Assembly (NCBI RefSeq): GCF_030486405.1
Contig: NZ_CP129613.1
Location: 1,550,001-1,614,000, forward strand
DNA length: 64,000 nucleotides
Reading direction: 5' to 3'
Origin: Mycolicibacterium sp. HK-90
Lineage (GTDB): Bacteria > Actinomycetota > Actinomycetes > Mycobacteriales > Mycobacteriaceae
Part shown: positions 5,275 to 45,389 of the stretch, piece after piece
How positions within the stretch are numbered: position 1 is the stretch's first letter
Layout: every line of letters begins with the position of its first letter
Notes under the pieces: model-generated
What the model saw: only the letters and a program-made list of their open reading frames with translations
Told to the model about the DNA's origin: nothing
The model's database searches: none
Made by a program: the position numbers and the translations under genes

Positions 5275-5991
5275 ATGAACCTCAAGAACGCACGTGTCCT
5301 GATCATCGGCGGCACCTCCGGCATCGGTCTTGGAGTGGCGGTAGCGGTGGCGGACCGAGGTGGCATCCCGATCGTGGTGTCGCGCAACCAGTCCAATGTC
5401 GATCGAGCCATCGCCGGACTCGGGGAGAACGCCCGCGGGATGACCGTCGACCTCACCGACCCCGCCTCGCTCGGTCGTGTCGCCGATGAGGTCGGGCAGA
5501 TCGAGCACCTGGTGTTCAGTGCGGGGGAGTCGCTCACGATGGTCGGCCTGGCCGATCTGACCGCTGCGACGATCACCGAGTTCATCAGCACCCGACTCAT
5601 CGGCCAGTTGCAGACGGTGCGGGAGTTCGCGCCCCGGATCACGCCGGGCGGGTCGATCACGCTCACTAGCGGCACGGCCGCCGAGAAGCCGGGCCTCGGC
5701 GTGTTGCCCACCGCGGTATGCGGCGCAATCAACGCGATGACCAGGGCGCTGGCCGTCGAACTGGCGCCGTTGCGGGTAAACGCCGTCGCCCCCGGTCCGA
5801 TCCGGACGCCGCTGTGGTCGGCGCTCGGTGAGGAGGATCGGGAGGCAATCTACGAGCAGTTCGCGAGCAATCTCCCCGTCGGCCGGATCGGTGAGCCCCC
5901 CGACACCGCGTTGGCGTACACCTACCTGATGGAACAGGAATTCGGGACCGGCGTGGTCCTGACCGTCGATGGCGGTACCACTCTGGTGTGA
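5275..5991 (+). CDS. Atypical short-chain dehydrogenase/reductase (SDR)
   Basis: The protein has 238 residues and begins at ATG 5275. The Rossmann glycine motif GGTSGIG (residues about 12-18), an NAG-like SAG motif and the C-terminal VAPGPIRTPLW segment place it in the SDR superfamily. The active site is unusual: 13 residues after the expected catalytic Ser, where Tyr is expected, there is Pro, and the Lys position is Cys (local sequence GVLPTAVCGAINAMTRALA). The canonical YxxxK pair is therefore absent. It may use another catalytic arrangement or act as a binding protein. Likely controlled by the divergent LysR gene. Confidence 0.9.
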   Translation: MNLKNARVLIIGGTSGIGLGVAVAVADRGGIPIVVSRNQSNVDRAIAGLGENARGMTVDLTDPASLGRVADEVGQIEHLVFSAGESLTMVGLADLTAATITEFISTRLIGQLQTVREFAPRITPGGSITLTSGTAAEKPGLGVLPTAVCGAINAMTRALAVELAPLRVNAVAPGPIRTPLWSALGEEDREAIYEQFASNLPVGRIGEPPDTALAYTYLMEQEFGTGVVLTVDGGTTLV

Positions 5992-38754: not shown

Positions 38755-38781
38755 CTACGTATCTACACCGTAGGTACGTAG
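38755..38781. promoter_or_regulatory. BlaI-type operator upstream of the dsbA-like gene
   Basis: Arms CTACGTATCTAC and GTAGGTACGTAG flank 3 bp; 11 of 12 positions are complementary. TAC/GTA half-sites are characteristic of BlaI/MecI operators. It lies 23 bp upstream of the dsbA-like start, and a copy with 23 of 27 identical bases precedes the L,D-transpeptidase gene at 41800. Confidence 0.82.
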
Positions 38782-38804
38782 GAAGCGATTCGGACGGAGG
38801 CGCA

Positions 38805-39539
38805 GTGGGAAGTTCTCGACAGGGCAGCATCAGGAGGGACGTCATACTGCTGGGTGGGCTGATCGCGATCGCCGCCGCCCTGATCCTGTATCTGGTGATG
38901 AACGGTCGCGGTGACTCCACGGCCGAGACCGCCTCCGGCGGCGGGCCCGCGGCAGCGGCCGTCCAGTCGGCGCCCACCGCGCCACCCGACGACCCGGTGG
39001 AACGGCATCAGCCCAATGACCCACTGGCCCTGGGAAGTTCGGACGCGCCGGTGACGATGGTGATGTTCTCGGACTACCGATGCCCGTTCTGCGCGAAGTT
39101 CAGCCGCGATACCGAGCCCGAATTGGTTACGCGATACGTCGATCAGGGCACGCTACGGATCGAGTGGCGGGATTTCCCGATCTTCGGTGACCAGTCGATG
39201 CTGGCGGCCCGGGCGGGGCGGGCGGCCGCCGCGCAGGGGCGGTTCTGGGAATTCACCCGTGCCGTGTTCGCCGCCGCGCCGGAGCGCGGGCATGCCGACC
39301 TCGACGAGCAGGCCCTGATCGGTTTCGCGAGGCAGGCCGGAGTCGCCGACATCGAGGGCTTCACCACCGCGATGCGCAGTACCGCCTTCGACGCGGCCAT
39401 CACTGCGGACCTCGCGCAGGGCAACCGCATCGGAGTGCCCAGCACCCCGGCGTTTCTCATCAACGATGTCCCGTTCCTCGGCGCACAGCCGACAGAGGAG
39501 TTCGTGCGCGCCATCGACGCCGCGGTGGGCGCCTTGTGA
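38805..39539 (+). CDS. DsbA-like membrane-anchored thiol-disulfide oxidoreductase
   Basis: The 244-residue protein starts at GTG 38805 after GGAGG. One N-terminal anchor (VILLGGLIAIAAALILYLVM) is followed by a Pro/Ala-rich linker and a DsbA thioredoxin domain with SDYRCPFCAKFSRDTEPEL (active-site CPFC) and the cis-Pro segment GVPSTPAFLIND. It should act outside the membrane on exported proteins. Its GTGA stop overlap with the next gene couples it to a CcdA/DsbD-like electron carrier. Confidence 0.93.
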   Translation: MGSSRQGSIRRDVILLGGLIAIAAALILYLVMNGRGDSTAETASGGGPAAAAVQSAPTAPPDDPVERHQPNDPLALGSSDAPVTMVMFSDYRCPFCAKFSRDTEPELVTRYVDQGTLRIEWRDFPIFGDQSMLAARAGRAAAAQGRFWEFTRAVFAAAPERGHADLDEQALIGFARQAGVADIEGFTTAMRSTAFDAAITADLAQGNRIGVPSTPAFLINDVPFLGAQPTEEFVRAIDAAVGAL

Positions 39540-40420
39540 GCATCGGTCTGCTGGGCGCATTCCTCGGTGGCCTCGCCTCGTTGCTGAGCCCCTGTTCGGC
39601 CCTGTTGTTACCGTCATTCTTCGCCTACGCCTTCGACCGGGTGACCACGCTGCTGCAGCGGACATTCGCCTTCTGGATCGGCCTGTGCCTGGTGCTGGTT
39701 CCGCTCGGTGCGGGGGTGGGCGCGGTGGGGACGGCGCTGACCCGCTACCGCGACGTGGTGGCCGTCGCGGGCGGGATCGTCCTCATCGGCTTCGGCATTG
39801 CATCCGTGCTGGGCAAGGGCTTCGGCGTCGCTGCGGCCGGACGCGCCGCGGCGCGGATCAAGATCTCCACCACGATGTCCGTGGTTGCCCTCGGCGCGGT
39901 CTACGGGCTGGCCGGCTTCTGCGCGGGCCCACTGCTCGGCGGGGTCTTGACCATGTCGGCGATGGGCGCCGACCCGGTTTACGGCGGCCTGTTGCTGGCT
40001 GTCTACGCGCTCGGTATGGCCGGGCCCCTGTTCGTCTTGGCTTGGGCCTGGGACCATTTCGGCCTCGCCGGACGGACGTGGCTACGGGGCCGCCCGCTCG
40101 CGATCGGCCCGCTGCGCACGCACACGACATCGCTGATCTCGGGCCTGGTCTTCATCGCGATCGGGGTGCTGTTCGTGCTCACCGACGGCACGGCCAATGT
40201 CGCGGGCGTGCTGGGCGTCGATGCCCAGTACGACCTGCAGGTGTGGCTGGCCCGGATCTCGTCGGCGGTCGGCGATCCGGCCGTGCTGCTGGCAGTGGTC
40301 CTGTGCGGCATCGGCTGGCTCGGGTACCGGCTGTGGCGTCGCCGCCGACCGGCGCAACCGGCCGCGACGGAGGGGAGCGCCGTGACGGAGGAGCCGCCGG
40401 GCTACTATCGGGCTACGTAG
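39536..40420 (+). CDS. CcdA/DsbD-like transmembrane electron-transfer protein
   Basis: The 294-residue protein starts at GTG 39536, overlapping the dsbA-like stop. Six or more hydrophobic helices and the paired cysteines in LSPCSALLLPSFFAYAF and AGFCAGPLLGGVL match CcdA, which carries reducing equivalents across the membrane. Together with the upstream DsbA-like protein it forms a complete extracytoplasmic thiol relay. A half BlaI-like site (CTACGTAG) falls on its stop codon, 20 bp before blaI. Confidence 0.9.
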   Translation: MSIGLLGAFLGGLASLLSPCSALLLPSFFAYAFDRVTTLLQRTFAFWIGLCLVLVPLGAGVGAVGTALTRYRDVVAVAGGIVLIGFGIASVLGKGFGVAAAGRAAARIKISTTMSVVALGAVYGLAGFCAGPLLGGVLTMSAMGADPVYGGLLLAVYALGMAGPLFVLAWAWDHFGLAGRTWLRGRPLAIGPLRTHTTSLISGLVFIAIGVLFVLTDGTANVAGVLGVDAQYDLQVWLARISSAVGDPAVLLAVVLCGIGWLGYRLWRRRRPAQPAATEGSAVTEEPPGYYRAT

Positions 40421-40440
40421 GTGGCGGAACGGACGGTGTG

Positions 40441-40815
40441 ATGGCGCTACGAGAATTCGGTGAGCTCGAAGCCGTGGTGATGGCGATCCTCTGGGACCGC
40501 GAGACGCCGACGACGGTTCGTAGTGTCTTCGACCAGCTCAAGGATCAGCGTCAGATCGCCTACACGACAGTCATGTCGACGATGGACAACCTGTTCCGCA
40601 AGGGCTGGCTGGACCGCGAGAAAGTCGGGTTGGCCTACCAGTACGTGCCCAAGATGAGCCGCGAGGAGCACACGGCGCGATTGATGCACACCGTGTTCGA
40701 GTCGGGCGGCGACAGCGAGCTCATCTTGAACTTCTTCCTGGACCGCATCGGTGACGACGAGTCCGCCAACCTGCGCCGGGCGCTGCGTCGCCACGCGAAG
40801 GGCGGCTCGCAATGA
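40441..40815 (+). CDS. blaI: BlaI/MecI-family transcriptional repressor
   Basis: The 124-residue protein starts at ATG 40441. The Penicillinase_R winged HTH is evident: LREFGELEAVVMAILWDRET, PTTVRSVFDQLKDQRQIAYT, TVMSTMDNLFRKGWLDREK. Residues 70-124 would form the dimerisation region. BlaI proteins are cleaved or released when a partner M56 protease senses beta-lactams or damage. It is coupled to that protease gene by ATGA and probably binds the two operators at 38755 and 41800. Confidence 0.95.
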   Translation: MALREFGELEAVVMAILWDRETPTTVRSVFDQLKDQRQIAYTTVMSTMDNLFRKGWLDREKVGLAYQYVPKMSREEHTARLMHTVFESGGDSELILNFFLDRIGDDESANLRRALRRHAKGGSQ

Positions 40816-41745
40816 ACGCGGTCACGTTCCTGCTCGTCTACGCGGTGACCCTGAGCTGGCTGGCGCCGGTGGTGCTCCCCGGCCGCAAGACGGGAGGCAT
40901 GCGTCCGGTTCTGGCCGTGGCGGCGTGGATGGGCGCGATCGTCACCTGCCTGGGCGCTTGGCTGGCAGCGCTGATGATCCTGGTCGTGGGACTGGTGCAC
41001 AGTGTGGTGGACCGCACGGCGCTGACGTTCTGCGTCCAGGCGCTGGGGTCTCGCGCCGACCGTGCACCTGCCTGCCCCGCTGGCCGTCACGCTCGTCGTC
41101 GGACTGATCGTCGTCACCGCATCGGTGGCCGCGCACACCGCCCGGCGCGTCATCGTCACGCTGGCGAGCAGTCGGCGCAACAACCGTGACCACGCCGAGG
41201 CGATGAACATCGTCGGCCGGGCAACCGGTCGACGCGGTGTCGTCATGGTCGATGCGCCTGAGCCCGTTGCCTACTGCGTGGCCGGCGGCGGGCGCCGTCT
41301 CATCGTGGTGACATCGGGGGCGCTGCGGCATCTCGATGACGCCGGGCTGCATGCGGTGCTGGCGCACGAGCGGGCTCACCTCCGCGGACGCCACCACCAG
41401 ATTGTCGCCGTGCTGACCGCGCTGGCGGCCGCACTGCCGCGGATGCCGCTCGTCGCCGCGGCGAACCGGACCGTGCCGGCGCTGCTCGAGATGTGTGCCG
41501 ATGACGCGGCCATCCGCTCGAGCAGCCGGCGGCAGGTGCTGCGCAGCCTCGTCCTGCTCAGCACCGGCGGGCGGGTGCCTGAGGGAATGCTCGCCGCAGG
41601 CAGCACCGCCGTACTGGACCGGGTGGAACGCCTGCTCAAGCCGGGTCGCCGGTTATCGTGGCGGGTCGGGGATCTGGGCCTGGCCATGTTGACGCTGGCG
41701 ACCTGCGCGGTTCCGTTCTTCGCCGCCATGCTGTGTGTCCTGTAG
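40812..41745 (+). pseudogene. BlaR1-like M56 metallopeptidase gene with an apparent one-base frameshift
   Basis: ATG 40812 overlaps the blaI stop. The first frame gives membrane helices (TFLLVYAVTLSWLAPVVLPG, LAALMILVVGLVHSVV) up to TFCVQALG and then degenerates. The second frame, open from 41026 to 41745, gives LAVTLVVGLIVVTASVAAHT, the zinc motif VLAHERAHLRGRHH (HExxH) and two more helices. Removing one G from the GGGG at 41045-41048 joins them smoothly (ALG-LAPTVHLPAPLA), giving about 310 residues, the usual mycobacterial M56 size. It could be a sequencing error, a true mutation or recoding. There is no penicillin-binding sensor domain, as in other mycobacterial BlaR homologues. Confidence 0.82.
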
Positions 41746-41799
41746 CCGCACCCGGCTGACCATCACAACCGTGACCCTGTCCGCGATCTTGGCTACCAT

Positions 41800-41826
41800 T
41801 TACGTATCTACTACGTAAGTACGTAG
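41800..41826. promoter_or_regulatory. BlaI-type operator upstream of the L,D-transpeptidase gene
   Basis: Arms TTACGTATCTAC and GTAAGTACGTAG flank 3 bp, in the same 12-3-12 layout as 38755-38781, with 23 of 27 bases identical. It lies 25 bp upstream of the ldt start, in the expected core promoter position. Confidence 0.82.
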
Positions 41827-41851
41827 TCGTCGCGAACAAAAGGGGTGCGCA

Positions 41852-43093
41852 ATGACACCTGGCCGCTGGGCCAGAACGGCTCTCGGGGTGACGATGGCGG
41901 GCCTGGCTGTCGCTGCGGTGCTCACCGTGGTGGACACCCCGGCCGATCGCGCGGACGCGCTGGCCTCACCCGGTGCGGAGGCGTCGGTAGTCGCCCCGGC
42001 CCGCGTCACCTTCAGTCCGGTCACAGACGCGACCGATGTCGCGCCGCTGGACCGGGTTACGGTCAGCGCGGCCGGAGGGACGCTGGCCGACGTCAGGATG
42101 GTCAACGATGCCGGCAAGGCCGTGCCCGGCGTCATGACATCCGACCGGGCGGCCTGGTCGCCCAGCGGGCCGCTCGGATTCGGCCGCACCTACACCCTGA
42201 CGGTCGACAGCCTCGGCGTCGGCGGCACACCGGCACGTCACGCGAGTCGCTTCACCACCCTGACCCCGGACAACCAGACTGCGGTCTCCCTCAGGACCAC
42301 GTCGGGCGCCTCGATCACCGACGGCGGCACCTACGGAGTCGGCACCGTCATCGTGGCCCATTTCGACGAACCCATCACCGATCGGGCTGCGGCACAACGC
42401 CGTCTGGCGGTCACGACGACACCGGCCGTCGAGGGTTCCTGGTACTGGGTCGACAACCAGAACGCGCACTGGCGGCCCGCCGAGTACTACCGACCGGGTA
42501 CCGAGGTCACCGTCGATGCCCAGATCTACGGTGCCGATCTCGGTGGCGGGCTCTACGGTCAGCAGGATGCCGCGGCGAGATTTCGGATCGGCGACTCGCA
42601 CGTGTCGATCGCCGACGATGCGACCAAACAGATCAAGGTGTACGACAACGGCCGGCTGGTCCGGACCATCCCGACCTCCATGGGCATGGGTGGATCGGAA
42701 ACCATTGGTGGAAAAGAAATCTCCTTCTGGACCCAACCGGGGGTCTACACGGTCATGGACAAGGCCAACCCGGTGATCATGGATTCGTCCACCTACGGGC
42801 TGCCGATCAATTCGCGGCTGGGCTACAAGGAGACGATCAATTACGCGGTGCGGCTGTCCAACGACGGCATCTACGTCCATCAACTGGAAAGCACGGTGTG
42901 GGCGCAGGGAAGCACCAACGTCTCGCACGGGTGCCTGAACGTCAACGCGGACAACGCCCGCTGGTTCTACGATTTCGCCCAGCCCGGCGACGTGTTCGAG
43001 GTCCGCAACACCGGCGGACAACCGCTGCAGATCTGGCAGAACGGCGACTGGAGTGTCAGCTGGGATCGGTGGCTCGCGGGCAGTGCGCTGTAG
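41852..43093 (+). CDS. L,D-transpeptidase (YkuD) with N-terminal Ig-like domains
   Basis: The 413-residue protein starts at ATG 41852. A signal anchor (ALGVTMAGLAVAAVLTVV) is followed by two Ig-like domains (about 45-145 and 145-260) and a YkuD catalytic domain with GIYVHQLES and VSHGCLNVN, the nucleophile being about Cys361. It makes 3-3 peptidoglycan cross-links, which resist most penicillins but not carbapenems. No lipobox Cys is seen, unlike Ldt proteins that are lipoproteins. The BlaI-type operator upstream ties it to the dsb-ccdA-blaI-blaR1 genes. Confidence 0.94.
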   Translation: MTPGRWARTALGVTMAGLAVAAVLTVVDTPADRADALASPGAEASVVAPARVTFSPVTDATDVAPLDRVTVSAAGGTLADVRMVNDAGKAVPGVMTSDRAAWSPSGPLGFGRTYTLTVDSLGVGGTPARHASRFTTLTPDNQTAVSLRTTSGASITDGGTYGVGTVIVAHFDEPITDRAAAQRRLAVTTTPAVEGSWYWVDNQNAHWRPAEYYRPGTEVTVDAQIYGADLGGGLYGQQDAAARFRIGDSHVSIADDATKQIKVYDNGRLVRTIPTSMGMGGSETIGGKEISFWTQPGVYTVMDKANPVIMDSSTYGLPINSRLGYKETINYAVRLSNDGIYVHQLESTVWAQGSTNVSHGCLNVNADNARWFYDFAQPGDVFEVRNTGGQPLQIWQNGDWSVSWDRWLAGSAL

Positions 43094-43186: not shown

Positions 43187-43477
43187 CTACGCGCTGCGGC
43201 GGATGCCGCGCTTGAGCAAAAGCTCGCGCTCCGACTCGCTCAGCCCGCCCCAGATGCCGTAGGGCTCGCCGACGGCCAGCGCGTGTGAGCGGCACTGAGT
43301 GATCACCGGGCAGCTGCGGCACATCTCCTTGGCGCGCAACTCACGTTGGGCCCGGGCGCGTCCGCGTTCGCCGTCGGGATGGAAGAACACCGACGAATCG
43401 ACGCCACGGCAAAGTCCCTGCATTTGCCAATCCCAGATATCCGCATTCGGTCCGGGAAGCTGCTGCGGCTGCGGCAT
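43187..43477 (-). CDS. whiB3: Redox-sensing transcriptional regulator WhiB3
   Basis: The 96-residue protein starts at ATG 43477 as MPQPQQLPGPNADIWDW. The four cysteines that hold the [4Fe-4S] cluster are present (GLCRG, then MCRSCPVITQC), as are the WhiB GIWGG turn and a basic C-terminus. WhiB3 binds the principal sigma factor and, in M. tuberculosis, controls lipid and redox metabolism. Compared with the tuberculosis protein as I remember it, about six residues are missing before the terminal GIRR. A 435-bp upstream region suggests complex control. Confidence 0.94.
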   Translation of the reverse strand: MPQPQQLPGPNADIWDWQMQGLCRGVDSSVFFHPDGERGRARAQRELRAKEMCRSCPVITQCRSHALAVGEPYGIWGGLSESERELLLKRGIRRSA

Positions 43478-43912
43478 GTGGAAAACCCCTCTCTGCGCGC
43501 CCATTTCGTCAATGCGGGCGAGTTTGAGTCGGTGGAACCGATGTGAGCTCGTGTCGCCGATGACCGCTCGTGCACACAAACTAGGGGGGCTGAATAAAGC
43601 GCGTCAATAGGCTGCACATGTGCTAAGGGACATAACCGCAGGTCGAGAATTTACATCACGTTCATCGTTGCGATGCTTTGGCTGAGACATGCCTGCTGCG
43701 GATCTGGCGATCTTCGCCGAGTTTTCCCTGTTCGGGCGGATCACGGCGGCAACTGCAATTCCAGGCGGCCGATAGTTAGTTGACATGCCATTAACATTCG
43801 GGCCATCAATTGTTAACTAATGGACTTTGGGCAAAGTTGTTTTTGCGTATCCGCGGGTACCGGGTCGCCCGAGATCCTGCGGTACCCCCGGTATTGATAA
43901 CGTCGCGAACCG
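43478..43912. other. Intergenic region (435 bp) between divergent whiB3 and the Rv3415c-like gene
   Basis: No coding frame is supported. The middle part (about 43600-43850) is AT-richer than its surroundings, with runs such as TTGTTAACTAATGG near 43809, and should contain the two divergent promoters. I could not assign individual boxes. Confidence 0.5.
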
Positions 43913-44710
43913 ATGACTGCAATCGCAGAGGCCGCCGCAGTACTGGCCGACGCCGCCTTCGGGGCTGACCCGGCCCGCTGGCCGCTGCCCAGCGCGACCA
44001 CCCCGCACGAGCATTGGCTGCGAGCGGTGGCCGCCGGCGGGCAAGGTCGGTACGGGTGCGCGCTCGCCGACCTCGCCGAGATCGTGCGGACCCAGGACTC
44101 CGGACCGTTGTTGTCGCTCGCGCACAGCACGCGGGCCTCATTTCTCCGTCAGCTCGGTGGGCACACCCGCGCCCGCGGCGCCGACGGGCTGGCCTGGGCC
44201 CTCCACGGCGGTGACGGGCAGGCCGCGGCCGACGCCCTCGTCGGTCTGGCCGCCGACGCCCTCGGGGTCGGCCGGTTCGGTGTCTCGGCCCGGCTGCTCG
44301 GCCGGGCAGGGGACGTCGGCGTCACGGATCACCCCCGGCAACGGATCCGGCTGGCGTGGGTGAGCGCCGAACTGGCGATGGCGCGGGGCGAAGGGGCCTC
44401 GGCCGTCGAACACGCCCGCCGAGGGGTGGCGGCCTCCGCGGAGTACGACTCGACCCGCCACGCGGTGAAATCCGACGTCGTGCTCGCCGCCGCGCTGTGC
44501 AGCGCCGGAGAACTCGACGCGGCGCGCGAGATCGCCGACGGCGCGCTGCTGGCCGCGCAGAAGTCCGGATTGATCCCGCTGCGCTGGGCGCTGGCGTGTC
44601 TGTTGGCCGGAATCGGCAGCACCGCCCACGATGCGGTGGAAATCGGCCGGATTCGGGACGTCAGTGCCGATACAGTGCGCCGCAGAGGCGGCGTGTGGTC
44701 CGGCGCCTGA
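43913..44710 (+). CDS. TPR-like protein of unknown function (Rv3415c-type)
   Basis: The 265-residue protein starts at ATG 43913. It is almost wholly helical and Ala-rich, with repeated helix pairs that resemble tetratricopeptide repeats (RYGCALADLAEIVRTQDSG, AAADALVGLAADALGVGRFG, LDAAREIADGALLAAQKSGL). Position just upstream of sigD matches tuberculosis Rv3415c. Its function is not established; a scaffold role is likely. The gene has no ribosome binding site I can see and may be leaderless. Confidence 0.85.
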   Translation: MTAIAEAAAVLADAAFGADPARWPLPSATTPHEHWLRAVAAGGQGRYGCALADLAEIVRTQDSGPLLSLAHSTRASFLRQLGGHTRARGADGLAWALHGGDGQAAADALVGLAADALGVGRFGVSARLLGRAGDVGVTDHPRQRIRLAWVSAELAMARGEGASAVEHARRGVAASAEYDSTRHAVKSDVVLAAALCSAGELDAAREIADGALLAAQKSGLIPLRWALACLLAGIGSTAHDAVEIGRIRDVSADTVRRRGGVWSGA

Positions 44711-44810
44711 TCCGGCACCGGCCAGATCACACCCGGCCGATCGTTATTGTTTAGCTCAGCCATGCAACCGAGAGTGTCGGTGCCACGTAACGCTGGAGAG
44801 ATCGCCCACG

Positions 44811-45389
44811 ATGACAAGTTCGGGAGACCGTCTCGACATTGTCGTTGCTGAGGCAGTGGCTGGTGATCGGAACGCGCTCCGGGAAGTGCTGGAGATCATT
44901 CGGCCGATCGTCGTCCGTTATGTGCGGGCGAGGGTCGGGGCAACCGAGCGCAGTGGTCTCTCAGCTGATGACGTTGCGCAGGAGGTTTGCTTGGCCGCCA
45001 TAACGGCGCTGCCGCGCTACAAAGATCAGGGACGCCCGTTCCTGGCCTTTGTCTATGGCATCGCTGCGCACAAGGTTGCTGACGCGCATCGCGCGGCGGC
45101 CAGGAACCGTGCCGAGCCCACCGATGTGGTGCCCGAGCGGTTCTCCCTTGACGCGGGGCCCGAGCAGTCCGCACTCGACGCCGAGTCTTCGGAACGGATG
45201 GCCCGGCTGCTGTCCGTACTGCCCGAGAAGCAACGCGAGATCCTGATCCTGCGCGTCGTCGTTGGAATGAGTGCGGAGGAGACGGCCGAGGCCGTCGGCA
45301 GCACGGCCGGCGCCGTGCGCGTCGCGCAGCACCGCGCACTGGCCCGGCTCAAGAACGAGATCATGGCGACGGGACGTGACCATGCCTGA
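44811..45389 (+). CDS. sigD: ECF RNA polymerase sigma factor SigD
   Basis: The 192-residue factor starts at ATG 44811 with GGAGAG about ten bases upstream. Region 2 (LREVLEIIRPIVVRYVRARV, SADDVAQEVCLAAITALPRY) and region 4 (LSVLPEKQREILILRVVVGM, SAEETAEAVGSTAGAVRVAQ) are intact. In mycobacteria SigD is linked to the stringent response and starvation. It overlaps by 8 bp the gene for its anti-sigma factor RsdA. Confidence 0.96.
   Translation: MTSSGDRLDIVVAEAVAGDRNALREVLEIIRPIVVRYVRARVGATERSGLSADDVAQEVCLAAITALPRYKDQGRPFLAFVYGIAAHKVADAHRAAARNRAEPTDVVPERFSLDAGPEQSALDAESSERMARLLSVLPEKQREILILRVVVGMSAEETAEAVGSTAGAVRVAQHRALARLKNEIMATGRDHA

Follow-up and report, generated by a model that had tools for sequence, protein, structure and literature searches.

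Introduction

What does a BlaI-type repressor govern in a mycobacterium when no β-lactamase gene lies beside it? The question is raised by a cluster of genes in Mycolicibacterium sp. HK-90 (NCBI RefSeq assembly GCF_030486405.1, contig NZ_CP129613.1), in which blaI stands in one operon with genes for a DsbA-like protein, a CcdA-like protein and a membrane protease of family M56, and has close to it the gene of an L,D-transpeptidase (LDT). The DNA analysed is a stretch of 64 kb (C1:1550001-1614000 of the single-contig genome of 6.49 Mb), which is here called the window and in which all positions without a prefix are counted. A sequence-only reading of the cluster had proposed that BlaI controls the thiol-redox genes together with the LDT gene via two operators, and that β-lactams or wall damage provide the signal. 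The co-regulation of the dsbA-ccdA operon and the LDT gene is strongly supported by sequence comparison, since the cluster is conserved in relatives with the LDT gene in different positions. As to the signal, we consider it rather probable that the accessory BlaI-M56 unit is a BlaR1-type switch for thiol or copper stress of the envelope, in which a pair of cysteines replaces the penicillin sensor.

The Operators

Direct reading bears out the two 27-bp operators with TAC/GTA half-sites that had been claimed: 23 of the 27 bases are identical, and each operator is an inverted repeat about a 3-base centre (Table 1). The TAC/GTA palindrome characteristic of the BlaI/MecI family is thus found ahead of both the repressor's own operon and its target gene, and binding of BlaI to both sites is predicted. 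With up to three mismatches the 25-bp core occurs at three places in the whole genome (reversed control pattern: 0). The third place (C1:3274518-3274550) consists of two overlapping registers 5′ of an NlpC/P60 gene, which adjoins a second BlaI-M56 pair, a multicopper oxidase gene and another LDT gene. A matrix of 31 columns, derived from 16 training sites including both window sites and used with a threshold of at least 11 bits, finds exactly operators 1 and 2 in the window and no site in five canonical BlaI loci (76.6 kb), canonical meaning of the Rv1846c type; across all 86 loci it gives 200 raw matches, as compared with 2 in the same loci reversed.

When 118 genomes of the genus were scanned for the operator core, 19 had a match. 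These include all ten genomes with a close BlaI (at least 70% identical, the own genome included, among the matches listed) and 9 of the 108 others (p = 9e-10). In one of the ten, G101, the match lies on a different contig, 5′ of a DsrE-like gene. Both window sites have a −10 element of the form TANNNT directly 5′ of the operator, but of 21 named relatives only 1 has it, and it was therefore rejected as a general rule. The start of an OsmC-like gene (PF02566, 38199-38624, minus strand) lies some 130 bp away from operator 1, on the opposite strand, and this gene could be affected too.

Table 1. Features of the cluster, with positions in the window.
Feature	Position	Strand	Evidence or remark
Operator 1	38755..38781	.	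inverted repeat CTACGTATCTAC-ACC-GTAGGTACGTAG; 23 bp 5′ of the dsbA-like start codon
DsbA-like thioredoxin-fold protein, predicted extracytoplasmic	38805..39539	+	PF13462, E 6.7e-32; CPFC active site, STP cis-proline
CcdA/DsbD_TM-like membrane thiol transporter	39536..40420	+	PF02683, E 1.9e-15
BlaI-type repressor	40441..40815	+	PF03965, E 1.9e-24, 86.6 bits (cut-off 22.6), residues 7-116
M56 membrane protease, N-terminal part (EL1 cysteine)	40812..41050	+	open reading frame 40812-41189; no Pfam match alone
M56 protease, zinc-site and C-terminal part	41062..41745	+	PF05569, E 5.4e-9; PF01435, E 1.3e-9; other frame
Operator 2	41800..41826	.	TTACGTATCTAC-TAC-GTAAGTACGTAG; 25 bp 5′ of the LDT start codon (ATG 41852)
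L,D-transpeptidase, LdtMt2 type	41852..43093	+	PF17964 and PF03734; catalytic SHGCLN

The Gene Products

Pfam matches confirm the identities that had been assigned to the dsbA-like, ccdA-like, blaI and LDT genes, and the close packing noted before is equally evident: dsbA and ccdA overlap by 4 bp, ccdA and blaI are separated by 20 bp, and blaI and the M56 gene again overlap by 4 bp. In the region 36.5-45 kb no called gene was recognized as that of a β-lactamase, in line with the earlier description; elsewhere in the genome there are six matches to PF13354.

The DsbA-like protein combines a thioredoxin fold, a CxxC motif and a cis-proline, as is typical of DsbA, and both active-site cysteines are kept in 22 of 22 alignment rows. 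An N-terminal membrane anchor and export are predicted from its N-terminal hydrophobic stretch, and its best PDB relatives are 7unn (E 1.5e-46) and 4pwp, a "DsbA" (E 2.2e-46). Its CcdA partner suggests a reducing relay rather than an oxidase. In the CcdA-like protein Cys20 and Cys129 are present in 22 of 22 rows and Cys51 in 21 of 22. The LDT carries the Ig-like Big_10 domain and the YkuD domain with the SHGC-N motif that mark the LdtMt2 type, is closest in the PDB to "L,D-transpeptidase 2" (5du7, E 9.1e-84), and has its catalytic Cys361 in all 22 rows; 3-3 cross-linking is therefore its predicted activity.

A Penicillinase_R winged-helix domain extends over the whole BlaI protein, as in other members of the BlaI/MecI family. 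The cleavage site of MecI, N101-F102, aligns with Asn97-Phe98 of BlaI, which is invariant in 10 of 10 rows and is the predicted cleavage site. There is no cysteine in BlaI, nor a cysteine column across 23 BlaI rows.

Conservation in Close Relatives

The arrangement recurs in other mycobacteria. Of the named loci, which are the best 80 of 128 (23 close and 57 more distant), 21 of the 23 close ones (BlaI at least 67% identical) have an LDT gene, an operator and the order dsbA-ccdA-blaI-M56. Together with the operators, this recurrence supports the joint control of the dsb/ccd genes and the LDT gene by BlaI that had been predicted. The best operator site lies 17-59 bp 5′ of dsbA in 21 named relatives. 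In 18 of the loci the LDT gene is divergent from dsbA with the operator in between, and in 3 it stands in tandem on the upstream side; the window has it downstream of the operon, with an operator of its own. A position that varies while the partners stay constant points to function, and not just to linkage. The two exceptions are M. algericus and a record of M. houstonense (L148) that shows a different order and has single-N joins at 5906, 7135, 8137 and 9967; because the record is N-joined, its gene order was not used.

The genus sample comprises 9 close-clade and 63 other loci. Of its 9 close-clade genomes, which do not include that of the window, 8 have dsbA-ccdA-blaI-M56 and 7 an LDT gene next to it, the exceptions being G101 with blaI-M56 alone and G002 with an Ag85-like gene in place of the LDT gene. 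A DsbA homologue at least 69% identical occurs in 9 of 116 genomes, all of them with a close BlaI. In G050 the same order recurs in a more remote form (DsbA 56%, BlaI 45% identical) with a weaker operator. Parsimony on the poorly resolved BlaI tree gives 11 changes of LDT adjacency, and a paired-trait test of wall versus thiol genes on this tree had 5 usable pairs only. Since the named loci partly repeat assemblies of the genus sample, the gene-order counts of the two were not summed.

The Wider Set of Accessory BlaI-M56 Loci

Accessory BlaI genes are frequent in mycobacteria and on actinobacterial plasmids and have in most cases an M56 neighbour; the named plasmid loci, too, have the neighbour genes described below (labels checked in Pfam). 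Among the 56 further accessory-BlaI loci of the genus sample, LDT genes are found in 26, NlpC/P60 genes in 28, DsbA/TlpA or CcdA genes in 21, and an operator-like site in 51. The LDT genes in these loci number 29, of which 25 have SHGC; at 1.43 LDT genes per Mb the expected number is 1.16. At the canonical BlaI loci such neighbour genes were found in 0 of 5. LDTs, NlpC/P60 hydrolases and DsbA/TlpA proteins all have an essential cysteine outside the cytoplasm (those of LDT and DsbA were checked here).

With the matrix-training loci excluded, an operator lies at most 300 bp upstream of 29 of 47 NlpC/P60, 12 of 24 DsbA/TlpA, 14 of 37 LDT and 7 of 8 ctaD genes, as compared with 52 of 723 pooled comparison genes and 0 of 59 M56 genes. 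In the 56-locus subset the corresponding counts are 22/38, 12/23, 12/29 and 6/7. That the thiol relay may serve the cysteine of the LDT, as the sequence-only reading had suggested, would fit with this wider preference of the operator for genes of extracytoplasmic cysteine enzymes.

The M56 Protein

In the relatives the M56 proteins are about 310 amino acids long. A Pfam scan (E 0.001) of 26 of them (304-328 amino acids) found no penicillin-binding domain, the matches being to M48 (26), M56 (8) and, weakly, Urb2 (1). The C-terminal part in the window ends at the same place as these sensor-less proteins and likewise has no sensor domain. In the strict sense one therefore cannot speak of a BlaR1 system, and the name BlaR1 given to this gene product in the sequence-only reading is not supported. 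It should be noted that the mycobacterial orthologues of BlaR have been described as devoid of the sensor domain and that the sensing of β-lactams by Mycobacterium tuberculosis is unexplained, according to the parts available of PMC5473688.

What the accessory M56 proteins have instead is a pair of cysteines. In a set of 121, drawn from both samples with identical sequences removed and near-identical ones kept, the zinc-site motif HExxH is present in all (HERAH in the window, on the C-terminal part, which also holds the last helix and the C-terminal cysteine), Cys74 in the signalling loop (EL1) in 120, and Cys308 at the end of the last helix in 118. Both cysteines are absent from the canonical M56 proteins (0 of 5 each). 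On its model, the M56 protein of the relatives is of a BlaR1-like fold. A Foldseek search with this model gave no match below E 0.001, BlaR1 being topmost only on second look, and a profile of the 26 proteins found none among PDB sequences at E 0.001. In the literature, as represented by titles and the openings of abstracts (subscription papers being mostly beyond reach), no description was found of the gene cluster, its operator or the M56 cysteines.

The Interrupted M56 Frame and the Other BlaI Genes

In the window the M56 gene is split over two frames, with the switch around 41,050, and in this respect too it differs from the single blaR1 gene that had been assumed. The frame is whole in the relatives: it is intact (307-313 amino acids) in 9 of 9 clade loci of the genus sample and in 22 of 23 named loci, and in the remaining one, that of M. 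houstonense (about 91% DNA identity over blaI-M56), it is open to the contig limit. Mycolicibacterium houstonense is the nearest named genome by BlaI identity (100% over 124 amino acids). Because M56 is intact or open in all relatives examined, the break either occurs in this genome alone of those examined or results from faulty assembly. The consequence is that, unless the assembly is at fault, induction would have to proceed via the second, intact BlaI-M56 pair.

This second pair (C1:3271897-3273215, BlaI2 at C1:3271897-3272259) adjoins the multicopper oxidase gene, and its BlaI2 is one of three BlaI proteins of the genome. BlaI and BlaI2 have the same recognition-helix letters, TTVMSTMDNL, and the canonical BlaI has TTIMTVLQRL. 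As helix and operator type are common to both, BlaI and BlaI2 may well recognize each other's operators, and M56-2 could act on both repressors should the local M56 turn out to be really broken. The canonical BlaI-M56 pair of the genome is found at a separate locus (C1:3520195) beside 6PGD-IMPDH-urease; its BlaI is 35% identical to that of the window, and the canonical rows form a separate clade in the BlaI tree (support 100). As many as 13 BlaI matches were found in one mycobacterial genome (G096), the highest number of the 118 among the matches listed.

Proposed Mechanism and Alternatives

In the mechanism that we propose, a BlaI dimer on operators of the form TACGTAnCTACnnnGTAGnTACGTA would repress its own dsbA-ccdA-blaI-M56 operon and the gene of the LdtMt2-type transpeptidase. 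The cognate M56 protein would correspond to the membrane and protease part of BlaR1 without the penicillin-binding sensor, in place of which Cys74 in EL1 and Cys308, where the last transmembrane helix would reach the outer face, would act together as a switch, either by thiol chemistry or by binding copper. Thiol or copper stress in the envelope would alter these cysteines, the protease would cleave BlaI at Asn97-Phe98, and fresh extracytoplasmic cysteine enzymes would be supplied, namely the 3-3 cross-linking LDT and the DsbA-like protein, with CcdA feeding electrons. Of the testable proposals to come from this comparison the best is that the cysteine pair of M56 senses thiols or copper. The two residues are at the positions of the signalling loop and of sensor attachment in BlaR1, and the proposal can be put to the test for accessory pairs in general. 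If it is true, these mycobacteria couple their penicillin-insensitive 3-3 cross-linking to redox or copper stress of the envelope, and metal or thiol stress could therefore alter wall cross-linking without an antibiotic. More tentatively, and with some doubt on our part, the accessory actinobacterial M56 proteins as a whole may be a new kind of BlaR1 that senses via Cys74/Cys308 and governs a Cpx-like regulon switching on spare LDT, NlpC/P60, DsbA/TlpA and CcdA proteins.

Several findings weigh against a switch of this kind. The M56 frame is broken in the window itself; an operator stands 5′ of blaI itself in only 12 of 71 cases and 5′ of a multicopper oxidase gene in only 4 of 10. Copper, metal-ATPase or oxidase genes are found near 32 of the 56 accessory loci, but a multicopper oxidase or CopC gene near only 10 of them, and in the window's own clade such copper, metal-ATPase or oxidase genes are near 1 of 9 loci (genus sample) and 0 of 23 (named). 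A PF13354-like gene is present in 11 of the 57 more distant named loci, and this would be in keeping with the signal originally suggested, a BlaR1-type response in which BlaI is released on β-lactams or uncross-linked wall and the LDT takes over. Consistent with such a response are also the LdtMt2 type of the LDT, the order DsbA-then-PF13354 with an operator in the locus in 8 of the 11 (e.g., M. aurum and M. neoaurum), and the operators borne by NlpC/P60 hydrolases and, in a few loci, by Ag85-like esterases. However, none of the 26 M56 proteins scanned has a penicillin-binding domain, and the window copy is frame-broken, so that the β-lactam signal finds no support in the protease. In the PF13354-like proteins that were read the motifs SxxK and SDN are accompanied by KNG in place of KTG, and for the one that was tested no PDB relative was obtained at E 0.001; they are for these reasons not established as β-lactamases. 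Thiol, wall-hydrolase and metal genes are the commoner neighbours, and we regard a β-lactam response as unlikely.

The switch could also be a copper sensor and nothing else, the LDT being one item of copper resistance and DsbA/CcdA handling copper damage in the way of the Scs proteins. Multicopper oxidase, DUF305, CopC or CopD/CtaG-like genes lie near 24 of the 56 accessory loci (32 when metal ATPases and cytochrome oxidase are included), the annotated plasmid loci of M. gallinarum, M. lentiflavum and Rhodococcus are in keeping with this, and BlaI2 of the genome itself stands beside a multicopper oxidase gene. Copper reportedly inhibits LDTs, as the title of a 2018 paper by Peters et al. has it. 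The scarcity of copper genes beside the window's own clade, given above, and the lack of any cysteine in BlaI, and hence of a CopY-type CxC site, make a copper-only regulon quite improbable. Finally, the unit may be decaying in this genome, with M56 dead, BlaI repressing permanently and both the operon and the LDT gene silent; the frame break, set against the frames intact or open in all clade relatives, is what would be expected. But the remaining parts are intact with conserved active sites, the BlaI protein has not diverged from that of M. houstonense, a single change of frame could come from faulty assembly, and a second intact M56 is encoded in the genome. We regard decay, too, as unlikely.

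Comparison with Known Systems

The thiol/copper switch proposed here resembles the BlaI/BlaR1 and MecI/MecR1 systems of Staphylococcus in its BlaI-family repressor with the Asn-Phe cleavage position, in the adjoining M56 protease with HExxH and, in the relatives, a BlaR1-like fold, and in the TAC/GTA palindromic operators. It differs from them in that the conserved cysteine pair is found instead of the penicillin-binding sensor and in that the targets are predicted to be dsbA-ccdA and the LDT gene rather than those of β-lactamase and PBP2a. BlaI (Rv1846c) and BlaR (Rv1845c) of M. tuberculosis belong to the same two gene families, and there, too, the M56 protein is sensor-less, as far as PMC5473688 could be consulted. 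However, recognition-helix letters and gene context differ, and the canonical M56 proteins have neither cysteine. Membership in the canonical Rv1846c regulon was rejected in view of the 35% identity, the different clade and context and the lack of a matrix site upstream of canonical blaI.

CopY is of the same repressor superfamily, but BlaI scores 34 bits with TIGR02698, far below the cut-off of 122, and the C-terminal CxC feature of CopY (PMC5772342, available in part) is missing. A CopY-type direct copper repressor was rejected because BlaI has no cysteine. The Cpx system of Escherichia coli joins dsbA with the L,D-transpeptidase gene of LdtD and responds to copper among other cues, according to what was accessible of PMC6737893; its histidine kinase and response regulator are, however, unrelated to BlaI-M56.

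Samples and Procedures

Of the 63 other loci of the genus sample, 7 (L074-L080) were taken for an operator match and 56 for BlaI. BlaI was called in 60 of the 63, that is in 54 of the 56 taken for it. The genus counts of BlaI rest on the matches listed and leave out, e.g., G013:C24:9427-9789 and G096:C1:2060370-2060729. The neighbour-gene counts leave out the operator-only loci L072, L073 and L081, of which L072 and L073 are among the matrix-training loci; the operator-upstream counts include L081, the own BlaI2 locus and five plasmid loci. The pooled comparison set consists of unlabelled genes together with M56, MFS, CysSyn, P-ATPase, M23, ArsR, CopD/CtaG and F510. A codon-usage script served for gene calling, and labels were assigned by BLAST with a small set of reference genes. 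Eight of the seed genes in this set, the "Ig-like" LDT genes among them, were verified in Pfam; the labelling of the genus loci and the operator-upstream counts missed some DsbA-like genes.

Further Observations

Beside the cluster (43190-45389) there are a gene for an extracytoplasmic function (ECF) sigma factor matching the NCBIfam family ShbA and a neighbour, presumably WhiB-like, without an NCBIfam match.

A DsbA-like gene followed by a PF13354-like gene, with an operator in each locus, stands beside BlaI in L198, L199, L204, L207, L208, L215, L226 and L227. The five PF13354-like sequences that were read have, besides the SxxK, SDN and KNG motifs, paired N-terminal cysteines. Extra ctaD genes (cytochrome c oxidase subunit I), the operator-bearing ones among which were counted above, occur in L083, L109, L119, L123, L124, L126, L137 and L140; they represent a spare respiratory oxidase in BlaI-linked islands. 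Esterase genes that we take to be Ag85-like read away from a BlaI operator at L063:11160-12146 (PF00756), L070:6225-7091 and L169:1887-2744, so that in some species the regulon may include enzymes for mycolates or wall lipids.

Finally, a gene for a small membrane protein is found at L063:6318-6710, L069:11055-11489, L070:10529-10933 and L073:201-542, with an operator upstream in all four. The L063 copy has no Pfam match, and a search for the protein in the genome of the window did not find it. There are 156 relatives, and the 120 listed are called, where they have a name, only "hypothetical", "uncharacterized" or "integral membrane". The protein has the motif GCPVCNK in L063, L069 and L169 and GCPLCNK in L070, followed by a second, C-terminal pair of cysteines, and might be a DsbB/VKOR-like partner.

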